DNA of 64,000 nt, from the NCBI GenBank assembly GCA_036504895.1, contig DASXUJ010000134.1, positions 1 through 64,000 on the forward strand, written 5' to 3'. The notes under the pieces were generated by a model. That model was not told the origin of the DNA, made no database searches, and saw only the letters and a list, made by a program, of their open reading frames with translations. Origin of the DNA: Syntrophorhabdaceae bacterium (GTDB taxonomy: Bacteria > Desulfobacterota > Syntrophorhabdia > Syntrophorhabdales > Syntrophorhabdaceae). How positions within the stretch are numbered: position 1 is the stretch's first letter; the number at the start of each line of letters is the position of its first letter. Made by a program: the position numbers and the translations under genes. Positions 7,716-19,132 of this stretch are shown one piece after another.

Positions 7716-8231
7716 ATGAAAAGATTGATAATATTCGTGCTCTGCATTACGGCCGTTACGGCCTTAACGGCGATGGCCGACGACGCGGCCGGCCGAAAGC
7801 AGGCGGCGATGGAGCTCGTTGAAATAATGAATGGCCGGGCCATGAGGGACGAGATGGTCAAAGCGGTCGATGATATGATGGAGAAGCAGTTCGAATTTGC
7901 AGCCGCGGATCTGTCGGCTGAAGCTCGTAAAACCATGGAGGCCCTGAAAAAAGAGTACTTTGACTGGCTTTCCGAGAGCCTGTCCTGGGAGCAGATGAGG
8001 ACGTTGTTCGTCGACGTCTATACGGAGGTATTCACCGAGGAGGAGATGAAGGAGCTCAATGGATTCTACCGGTCCCCCCTGGGCAGGAAAATGCTCGATA
8101 AGATGCCCCGACTCATTGAGGCGACCATGCGGAAGAGCCGGGAGATGGTACAGAAAAAGCTTCCCGAGTTCAATGCGAGGCTCGATGCCCTGGTTTCTGA
8201 CGTGACGGCAAAGTACAGGGTAGGGAAATAG
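7716..8231 (+). CDS. secreted DUF2059-type protein
   Basis: A 171-aa protein with a cleavable signal peptide (about residues 1-21, ending A-M-A-D-D). The mature part is helical and carries the DUF2059 pattern: F-T-E-E-E-M-K-E-L-N-G-F-Y-R-S-P-L-G-R-K-M-L-D-K-M-P. ATG 7716 has GGGAGGG upstream. DUF2059 has no established biochemical role. It heads a cassette whose second gene is a SelW-like selenoprotein, and a truncated copy of itself lies at 8551-8802, so the pair was duplicated together. Confidence 0.78.
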   Translation: MKRLIIFVLCITAVTALTAMADDAAGRKQAAMELVEIMNGRAMRDEMVKAVDDMMEKQFEFAAADLSAEARKTMEALKKEYFDWLSESLSWEQMRTLFVDVYTEVFTEEEMKELNGFYRSPLGRKMLDKMPRLIEATMRKSREMVQKKLPEFNARLDALVSDVTAKYRVGK

Positions 8232-8327
8232 CGATTTCAGACCCCCACAAAAGGCTTGCAACCGAAGCCGTGGAGCGGCAGAATATATACAGGCGGGAAA
8301 GGCCGCCACCAAATTGAGGAGGGTATT

Positions 8328-8552
8328 ATGAACATTTTTATCGAATACTGCGGTTCCTGAAACTACCAGCCCCATGCTTCCCGTGTGGAAGCGGAATTGA
8401 AATCGAGTTTCCCCGATTCCAAAATCAAGGTTGTCGTAGGCAGCGGCGGCATCTTCGACGTGAAATGCGACGGCAAGCTCGTCTATTCGAAAGCGAAAAC
8501 AAACAGGTTCCCCCAGGAGGGAGAGGTGACGAAGCTCATAGGGGAGAAGTGA
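8328..8552 (+). CDS. SelW-like (Rdx family) selenoprotein, UGA decoded as Sec
   Basis: A 74-residue thioredoxin-like protein whose 11th codon is an in-frame TGA (8358-8360). Reading through it as selenocysteine gives E-Y-C-G-S-U-N-Y, which places Sec in the C-x-x-U redox motif exactly where animal SelW has C-G-A-U-G-Y. The frame continues with the family pattern (A-E-L-K ... G-S-G-G-I-F-D-V-K-C-D-G-K-L-V-Y-S-K) to a TGA stop at 8550. ATG 8328 follows GAGGAGGG. A hairpin right after the TGA fits a bacterial SECIS. The adjacent paralogue (8895-9176) has GGA at the equivalent codon. An alternative reading, a nonsense mutation in a non-Sec gene, is less likely because family, motif and hairpin agree. 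Confidence 0.8.
8359..8411 (+). promoter_or_regulatory. candidate bacterial SECIS element
   Basis: Immediately 3' of the in-frame TGA, GAAACT (8359-8364) can pair with AGTTTC (8406-8411). Inside, GCTTCC (8376-8381) pairs perfectly with GGAAGC (8387-8392) around the loop CGTGT. The apical loop, containing GU, starts 22 nt from the UGA, within the spacing known for bacterial SECIS elements read by SelB. In the paralogue the same positions no longer form the 6-bp stems. Confidence 0.6.
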
Positions 8553-8802
8553 GGAGGAGATCGGCGAGCTCATCGGCTTCTACAAATCTCCCCTGGGCAG
8601 AAAACTTCTCGATAAAATGCCCGACCTTATCCGGACGACCATGGAAAAGAGCCCGGAGATGGTAATGAAAAGGCCACCCGAGTTTGAGGCAAGGATGGAG
8701 AAGATCCTCTTGGCGACCCCGAAGCGAAGTACAAGACAAAGCCCTCCCCGGTCCAAACCGAGCCCCTTCTCGGCCGCAGATAAATTCGGAGAAAGGCGAT
8801 AG
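8551..8802 (+). pseudogene. truncated second copy of the DUF2059 gene
   Basis: This frame starts at the stop codon of the selenoprotein gene and encodes E-L-I-G-F-Y-K-S-P-L-G-R-K-L-L-D-K-M-P-D-L-I, closely matching the C-terminal half of the DUF2059 protein at 7716-8231. The signal peptide and N-terminal half are missing. Near 8708 the homology shifts frame (the sequence equivalent to A-K-Y-K is then in another frame). It is the relic of a tandem duplication of the DUF2059 plus SelW-like cassette. Confidence 0.75.
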
Positions 8803-8894: not shown

Positions 8895-9176
8895 ATGAGG
8901 ATAGTTATCGAATACTGCGGCTCCGGAGACTACCGGCCCCATGCTTTCCGTGCCGAAGCGGAACTGAAGGGAGCGTACCCCGATTCAACCATCGTTCGCG
9001 TCGAAAGCAGCGGCGAAATCTTCGAGGTAAAGTGCGACGGTATGCTTGTCTATTCGAAGCAGCAGGTCCCGGGAGACCGTTTCCCCATCACCGGGGAGCT
9101 CACGAAGCTCCTGGGGAACAAGGAAAGAGCAAGGGAATTGGAAAAGGAGAGGGCGAAGCAAGGGATAGAGGACTGA
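8895..9176 (+). CDS. SelW-like (Rdx family) protein with Gly at the Sec position
   Basis: A 93-aa paralogue of the selenoprotein just upstream. The N-terminus reads M-R-I-V-I-E-Y-C-G-S-G-D-Y, so the redox motif C-x-x-U has become C-x-x-G by a one-base difference (TGA versus GGA). The core (G-E-I-F-E-V-K-C-D-G-M-L-V-Y-S-K, then R-F-P-I-T-G-E-L-T-K-L-L-G) is conserved. It also has a charged C-terminal extension absent from the Sec copy. ATG 8895 has GGAGGAGG upstream. With only one active-site thiol, classical dithiol chemistry is not expected; a changed function or gradual decay is possible. Confidence 0.8.
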   Translation: MRIVIEYCGSGDYRPHAFRAEAELKGAYPDSTIVRVESSGEIFEVKCDGMLVYSKQQVPGDRFPITGELTKLLGNKERARELEKERAKQGIED

Positions 9177-9256: not shown

Positions 9257-9330
9257 TTGACTCATAATTAAATCTTACCCAAGAGCAGTTGCGGCCAGGC
9301 AACATTGACTCATAAAAGATGTTACCCGGG
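9257..9330. repeat. left IS end: two tandem terminal-repeat copies
   Basis: The terminal motif occurs twice: TTGACTCATAATTAAATCTT... with TTACCCAAG at 9257-9285, and TTGACTCATAAAAGATGTTA with CCCGGG at 9305-9330. Both share TTGACTCATAA followed by TTACCC. Paired copies of this kind usually are multiple transposase binding sites. Confidence 0.75.
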
Positions 9331-10479
9331 GGCGGGGAGGAAGAATACCTTTTTCAGCTTCGCCTCCATTGCTTTACGTAGCACAAATGGATTGAGTCCT
9401 TCAAGCTCTTTAGTAAGTGATTCCTTGACCGTATCGGGGATATGAGGAGACTCCATGATTCTCTGATAAGGGGTCTTGGGAGAATCATGATGCTTTATGG
9501 TCTTGGAGCCGATCCTTTCCTTCGATATGAGCTTTACCGAAGGGCAGAAGAAGTTATGAAAGAGCCGCCATTCGGTTCGGTAAAGATCGTTGAGGAGTGG
9601 CACCACGCCTATGGTGTCCATCCTTTCATATCCCAGCCATTGCCGTACATGGGTCCAGTTCTTCTGCTCAATATGCGCATTATCGTCCTTATGGTAGGCC
9701 CTCGAGCGGGTAAAGGCGACAGGCTTTATTCTCTCTTCGAAGTGTCTCACGAGATGGTAATTGAGAAACTCAGATCCGTTGTCGCAATCGAAACCCAAAA
9801 GGGGAAAAGGGAGAAACTGCTCCACATCCTTAATCTGTTCCAGCACGCCCCGTTCCCCCTTGCCCCACACTGCCCGCTGCTCGGTCCAGCCGGTAGCGAT
9901 GTCAACAAAGTCTATGGTATTCACATATATCCCCGCGGTAGTCTCTCCGCAGTGCGCCACCGTATCCGCCTCCAGAAATCCCGGTCTTGTCTCATCCCAC
10001 TGGTTCACCTTCACCGGTATGTGCCTCCTCAGAAGCGTTCCCGGTTTCGTGGTCGACCTCCCGTGTGTTCTGTACTTCATGCGGGTGGGTTTTAAGAGCC
10101 TGTCGATCGTGGCAGGAGATATACGTTTCAATGCCTTGATAACATCCAGGGGCAGAGGTTCGAAGGACTTTGCATACCCGGGGAGCCACAAAGGGAGGAT
10201 CACCTTTAAGCGCTTTGAGCAGGGGAGGTTTGCAGCACGCCATATCCGCTTTAAGGCATGGAGAATCTTGTCGTCTCCATAGAGGGGCCTTCTTCCTCTC
10301 TTCTTCGGTTTGGGCCTGGTAAATCGCTTAAAGCCCCTCAGAAGCACAATCGCATATTTCCGGTGATAACCCGTTGTGGCGCAGAACTCATCGAGAATGA
10401 CGGTCTTCTCCTTCATTGAAGCCCTCTTATACCTCTTATGAACGGCTTCGGTGTACTCTCTTTTGGATCGCGGACTCAT
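9322..10479 (-). CDS. IS transposase, integrase (DDE) core domain
   Basis: A 385-aa transposase. The N-terminal part has a helix-turn-helix-like basic region (K-T-V-I-L-D-E-F-C-A-T-T-G-Y-H-R-K-Y-A, then R-P-K-P-K-K-R-G-R-R-P). The retroviral-integrase-like core follows, with first Asp in F-L-E-A-D-T-V-A-H, second in G-F-D-C-D-N-G-S-E-F and Glu in H-I-E-Q-K-N-W. The start ATG 10479 has AAGGAGG upstream; a slightly longer frame begins at 10497. It is related to IS481/ISNCY-type integrase-core transposases; the exact IS family needs a database comparison. No frameshift or stop is seen. Confidence 0.88.
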   Translation of the reverse strand: MSPRSKREYTEAVHKRYKRASMKEKTVILDEFCATTGYHRKYAIVLLRGFKRFTRPKPKKRGRRPLYGDDKILHALKRIWRAANLPCSKRLKVILPLWLPGYAKSFEPLPLDVIKALKRISPATIDRLLKPTRMKYRTHGRSTTKPGTLLRRHIPVKVNQWDETRPGFLEADTVAHCGETTAGIYVNTIDFVDIATGWTEQRAVWGKGERGVLEQIKDVEQFLPFPLLGFDCDNGSEFLNYHLVRHFEERIKPVAFTRSRAYHKDDNAHIEQKNWTHVRQWLGYERMDTIGVVPLLNDLYRTEWRLFHNFFCPSVKLISKERIGSKTIKHHDSPKTPYQRIMESPHIPDTVKESLTKELEGLNPFVLRKAMEAKLKKVFFLPAPG

Positions 10480-10508
10480 AGGCAACGCCTCCTTCAAAGG
10501 CAGGTATT

Positions 10509-18779: not shown

Positions 18780-19132
18780 GGGGGCGATTGGTCTCGACAG
18801 GGATGCAAGAGTCAGAGAGGCATGCCGGGTTTTCTGCCGACCCGTAAAAAAGGCGGAACTAAACACAACTGCAGACTCTAACGAGTACGCACTAGCCGCC
18901 TAGAGCGGCTACGTCATCCGGACTTTCTTCCTGCTTCAAGTCCGAGTATGGCGTCATTCAAGTAGGATAGTCTTTCCTGAAACCTATAGGGAAAGGCGAA
19001 ATTAATAGGCATGGGTGGTGTCAAACCTGTCAGTGGGTGTTTCCCCATCCGAGATTAAATCACTGACTACGCATGTAGGCTTTTTGGCTGCTTCTTCTTT
19101 GGACGCGGGTTCGATTCCCGCCGCCTCCACCA
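18780..19132 (+). ncRNA. ssrA: transfer-messenger RNA (tmRNA)
   Basis: Ribosome-rescue RNA of 353 nt. The 5' end GGGGGCGATTGGTCTCGACA pairs through its first seven bases with CGCCTCC before the encoded ACCA 3' end. The T arm (GGGTTCGATTCCC) is at 19107-19119. The tag reading frame (18871-18903) encodes A-D-S-N-E-Y-A-L-A-A and stops at TAG, the expected degradation-tag pattern. The RNA starts 2 nt after the smpB stop, so it must either be processed from the smpB message or use a promoter inside smpB. Confidence 0.96.

Follow-up and report, generated by a model that had tools for sequence, protein, structure and literature searches.

SelW-like selenoproteins were reported in 2006 from Deltaproteobacteria, Desulfotalea and Geobacter among them (PMC1794560), and bacterial members are known today from Desulfotalea psychrophila, Geobacter, Alkaliphilus and others (PMC1794560, PMC13188914). 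The SELENOW-like family, defined by PF10262 and a C-x-x-U motif, is a listed family of prokaryotic selenoproteins (PMC13188914), and in Epsilonproteobacteria annotation has been reported to miss SelW genes entirely (PMC4607533). The gene described here lies in a window of 64,000 nucleotides, the whole stretch of DNA that was analysed. It shares with the described bacterial proteins the Rdx domain, the N-terminal C-x-x-U, a SECIS element right after the UGA and a Deltaproteobacterial host. There is no essential difference between them, and the tandem glycine-bearing duplicate in the window is alone unusual. Homology, decoding genes, a conserved UGA and a conserved SECIS all point, as the initial annotation had proposed, to a true SelW-like (Rdx) selenoprotein gene, almost certainly one whose UGA is read as selenocysteine by way of SelB, Sec-tRNA and the SECIS, the product being probably a thioredoxin-like redox protein. 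The gene was read correctly and is ordinary, one more SelW-like selenoprotein of a known family.

The frame opens at ATG 8328, reads MNIFIEYCGS-[TGA]-NYQPHASRVEAELKSSFPDSKIKVVVGSGGIFDVKCDGKLVYSKAKTNRFPQEGEVTKLIGEK and ends at a second TGA; the ribosome site GAGGAGGG stands immediately upstream of the ATG. The TGA at codon 11, the context EYCGS-U-NY and the ribosome site are all present in the sequence as first described, and the original figure of 75 codons holds if the stop is counted, the gene consisting of 74 sense codons plus the stop. Standard gene calling had been expected to cut or overlook such a frame. Mechanical ORF calling indeed returned no ORF of at least 60 aa for the gene, and the longest plain ORF across the locus, 269 aa on the minus strand, is spurious. 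Searched mechanically for frames that read through a TGA and carry a bSECIS-like hairpin, the window gave 25 candidates; only five have a cysteine near the TGA and only the gene at 8328 has the C-x-x-U context. A promoter scan, with 1 site against 0.8 expected, was uninformative. The features of the locus are collected in the table.

Table. Coordinates of features at the selenoprotein locus (window positions)
Feature	Position	Strand	Details
Upstream DUF2059 gene, probably duplicated along with the Rdx gene	7716..8231	+	PF09832, 1.7e-17
Ribosome binding site (TTGAGGAGGG region)	8314..8323	+	upstream of the ATG; from the sequence
SelW-like / Rdx selenoprotein gene (predicted)	8328..8552	+	74 aa; Sec = residue 11; stop TGA 8550-8552
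UGA codon predicted to be read as selenocysteine, C-x-x-U motif	8358..8360	+	same-column TGA in 44 + 8 homologues, Cys in four
Bacterial SECIS hairpin (predicted)	8376..8392	+	core stem 8377-8381/8387-8391; extra pair 8376/8392; loop 8382-8386, CGUGU
Shortened remnant of second DUF2059 copy	8551..8699	+	ungapped match to 8037-8185
Duplicate Rdx gene, Gly in place of Sec	8895..9176	+	Gly codon GGA 8925-8927; PF10262, 1.3e-10

With the TGA translated as a residue, the protein matches the Pfam Rdx family (PF10262) at 1.3e-21 with 77 bits against a cut-off of 22.6. The match covers residues 3-71 and thus both sides of the TGA, which shows that the frame did not arise by chance. The protein also matches NCBIfam NF041051 (SelT/SelW/SelH family (seleno)protein) at 6.9e-29, its 99.9 bits standing above the curated cut-off of 88. 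Length and motif agree with this Campylobacter-type model, although the window's organism belongs to a different phylum from the model's namesake. Selection on the gene is purifying, with Ka/Ks of about 0.11-0.15 relative to orthologues where Ks could be estimated.

An AlphaFold model, for which the window protein and its duplicate were aligned with five relatives (seven sequences), shows the Rdx fold with a mean pLDDT of 90.7. Its elements, E2-8, H14-27, E32-38, E43-47, E50-54, H55-58 and H66-72, give the thioredoxin-like beta-alpha-beta-beta-beta-alpha arrangement. C8-G-S-U11 follows strand E2-8 and so places C-x-x-U at the end of strand 1, as membership of the Rdx/SelW-like family requires. 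Foldseek gives 23 matches in the PDB at E <= 0.001, every one a SelW-related protein or MIEN1. The top matches are bacterial (2ojl, 2oka, 3dex, 2fa8, 2obk and 2p0g; TMq 0.83-0.91), with MIEN1 and mouse SelW (2npb) ranking after them. Sequence identity to 2fa8, 2obk, 2oka, 3dex and 2p0g is just 21-30%, despite the common fold. The best PDB match by sequence, 4rv1, is an engineered repeat protein and was dropped as a composition artefact.

The published bSECIS model describes an apical loop of 3-9 nt on an upper stem of 4-16 bp, 16-37 nt from the UGA, with a G at loop position 1 or 2, the next base usually being G or U, and a minimum free energy of -7.5 kcal/mol or lower (2026 review, PMC13188914). 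Folding the region downstream of the TGA yields a hairpin of this description: the loop has 5 nt, the stem 7 bp by scan, the G is second in the loop (8383, the invariant base), the distance from UGA to loop is 21 nt, and the energy, which is the score of the contiguous stem, is -8.1 kcal/mol. This energy stands only a little apart from that of dinucleotide shuffles (z about -1.1 to -1.9), and it is matched or beaten by 7.5% of synonymous recodings. Energy alone would not convince; it is the comparison of sequences across species that shows the predicted hairpin to be real. In a gap-free alignment of 44 homologues every sequence has G as its second loop base, and the base after it is G or U, again in 44 of 44. 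Of the cells of the five core pairs 96.8% are paired; shuffles reach 82.7%, and sliding the pairing by 1-3 bases leaves 32-62%. In 39 core-stem cells both sides have changed, where shuffles give 15. Columns 21 and 33, two third-codon positions, illustrate the point: U-A occurs 18 times, C-G 21 times, U-G four times, G-C once and C-A never (Fisher 1.4e-8, uncorrected for relatedness), and the A/G and C/U changes in these columns leave the amino acids unchanged. The inner stem first drawn at 8376-8381/8387-8392 thus exists, with a conserved core and compensatory changes. An outer stem proposed at 8359-8364/8406-8411 fared differently: within its family it is complete in the window sequence only, and it is unsupported as a conserved part of the element because 164 of 264 cells pair across the 44 homologues, compared with 141-145 when slid by one base.

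A survey of 395 genomes of the phylum found 57 Rdx matches in 56 genomes; an in-frame TGA lies inside the match in 52 genomes, and five matches lack one. The set read residue by residue comprises 44 distinct and eight further TGA sequences, a few of the 52 survey matches falling outside it, and in every one of these 44 + 8 the TGA occupies the U of C-x-x-U. Four of the matches without TGA are full-length orthologues with C-x-x-C (L044/L058, L048, L084 and L085), the replacement by cysteine codons that the initial annotation had suggested looking for among relatives; the fifth is the window's own duplicate. Glycine or other residues throughout the family would have spoken against selenocysteine. 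The full-length orthologues read, all from related genomes, have TGA or Cys only, and the sole other residue in this column is the Gly of the gene's own tandem copy. A selA match is present in all 52 TGA genomes and in 307 of the 343 others (Fisher p 0.008, uncorrected for relatedness). In one TGA genome (G093, 82% complete) the selA match is a fragment only, and a genome without selA (G135) carries the Cys form. One near relative of the gene sits on a contig labelled Cloacimonadota (L054, JAQICU010000099.1); its best segment shares 64% identity with the window protein, so that either a transfer or a mis-binned contig would account for it.

The genome from which the window comes holds the complete set of decoding genes, whose absence would have weighed against the proposal. 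These are a tRNA-Sec gene (selC) with anticodon UCA at 69.2 bits, selB at 1.3e-110 (370 bits, cut-off 242), selA at 1.8e-171 (571 bits, cut-off 268) and two selD genes above cut-off, at 4.0e-110 and 5.6e-109. One selD itself has an in-frame TGA, at G-A-G-U-A-S-K, where the other has Cys; the two forms (L020 and L021, contigs C108 and C96) read GAGUASKIGP and KSGCASKIGP. The window also contains a tmRNA gene at 18780-19132 (+), recognised by Rfam RF00023 at 197.9 bits.

An in-frame stop is ordinarily read as damage, and a pseudogene, made by a nonsense mutation at codon 11 of an Rdx gene, would suit a locus that has a degenerating copy next door and a DUF2059 remnant beside it. This explanation would nevertheless have to account for a TGA column shared by dozens of species from many families of the phylum, for purifying selection downstream of the TGA and for a SECIS conserved through compensatory changes, which makes it very improbable. 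That the UGA is read as another amino acid, through a recoded genome in which it means Trp or Gly or through general read-through of stops, could draw on the Gly codon of the duplicate as a hint. The gene itself, however, ends in TGA, as do several orthologues, the genome carries complete Sec machinery, and the other full-length orthologues have Cys rather than Trp or Gly at the site, so that a reading of this kind has next to no probability.

GTG codons downstream of the TGA would permit an internal start, with a short protein as the only product and the hairpin as a by-product of coding; yet such a start would delete strand 1 and the redox motif, and the MNIFIEYCGS region with its Cys and the ribosome site are conserved among orthologues. 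A short protein of this sort is highly unlikely. Nothing arguing against Sec decoding was found in this computational analysis.

For the selenoprotein itself, established knowledge of Sec decoding suggests the course of translation. The ribosome would reach the UGA at codon 11, where the hairpin 21 nt downstream would recruit SelB with Sec-tRNA(UCA); selenocysteine would be inserted and translation would run on until the TGA that starts at 8550. Family membership, a predicted Rdx fold, the decoding genes and the conservation of UGA and SECIS were all observed computationally, and insertion of Sec and redox chemistry at C8 and U11 would be expected by analogy with known systems. The product would be small and thioredoxin-like, with C8-G-S-U11 as its redox motif. 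Analogy with the family suggests that it would probably act as a thioredoxin-like selenol/thiol oxidoreductase, most likely one that forms and resolves a selenenylsulphide or a mixed disulphide.

Downstream, the duplicate, which the initial annotation did not mention, has the motif EYCGSG, with GGA at the site of the first copy's TGA. The DUF2059 remnant sits between the two Rdx copies and begins inside the Sec gene's own stop codon, at the GAGGAGGAG that is common to the intact DUF2059 gene (8037 onward); this start is likely a deletion junction of the tandem duplication. The match of the remnant to the intact gene suggests that, most likely, a DUF2059-Rdx unit was duplicated in tandem and the second DUF2059 then lost its front. 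Ks between the copies is 0.61, below the values with orthologues (about 1.6 to saturation), and the duplication therefore appears specific to the lineage of the window. A conserved DUF2059-Rdx operon was considered and rejected: in tblastn searches of the fetched loci (flanks of 1.5-3 kb) DUF2059 matched in the window's genome only, at no relative's locus. The genes adjoining the Rdx gene are not conserved among the relatives inspected, and genomic context thus gives no hint of function. Directly downstream of the duplicate, a 391-aa frame at 9322-10497 (-) looks transposase- or integrase-like by eye; it has no Pfam match at 0.001.

The two Rdx copies have evolved unequally. Ka/Ks between them is 0.48, against the low values for the Sec copy and its orthologues, and the Gly copy carries 18 of the assignable residue changes where the Sec copy carries 4 (11 and 2 when strongly conserved sites alone are counted). 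All 44 Sec genes form the innermost SECIS pair, which is broken (C-C) in the Gly copy; a hairpin there was not counted as a SECIS, the scan having placed it in a different register. These patterns suggest, as the likeliest account, that the Gly copy is a derived, fast-evolving duplicate in which a single T-to-G change removed Sec and which is now drifting, although it may still be retained, since its frame is open. It is a rather doubtful possibility that the copy was kept as an Rdx protein without redox function (C-x-x-G), acting as partner or regulator of the Sec copy, a change of role from Sec to Gly in place of the usual Sec to Cys. A literature search on Sec-to-Gly change found nothing specific.

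With this locus, a group already known for its many selenoproteins gains one more of the SelW-like type, and the case confirms that reading raw sequence can catch a gene which routine ORF calling would truncate at codon 10. The adjacent duplicate, with its apparent change from Sec to Gly, offers a small natural example of the loss of a selenoprotein active site after duplication.
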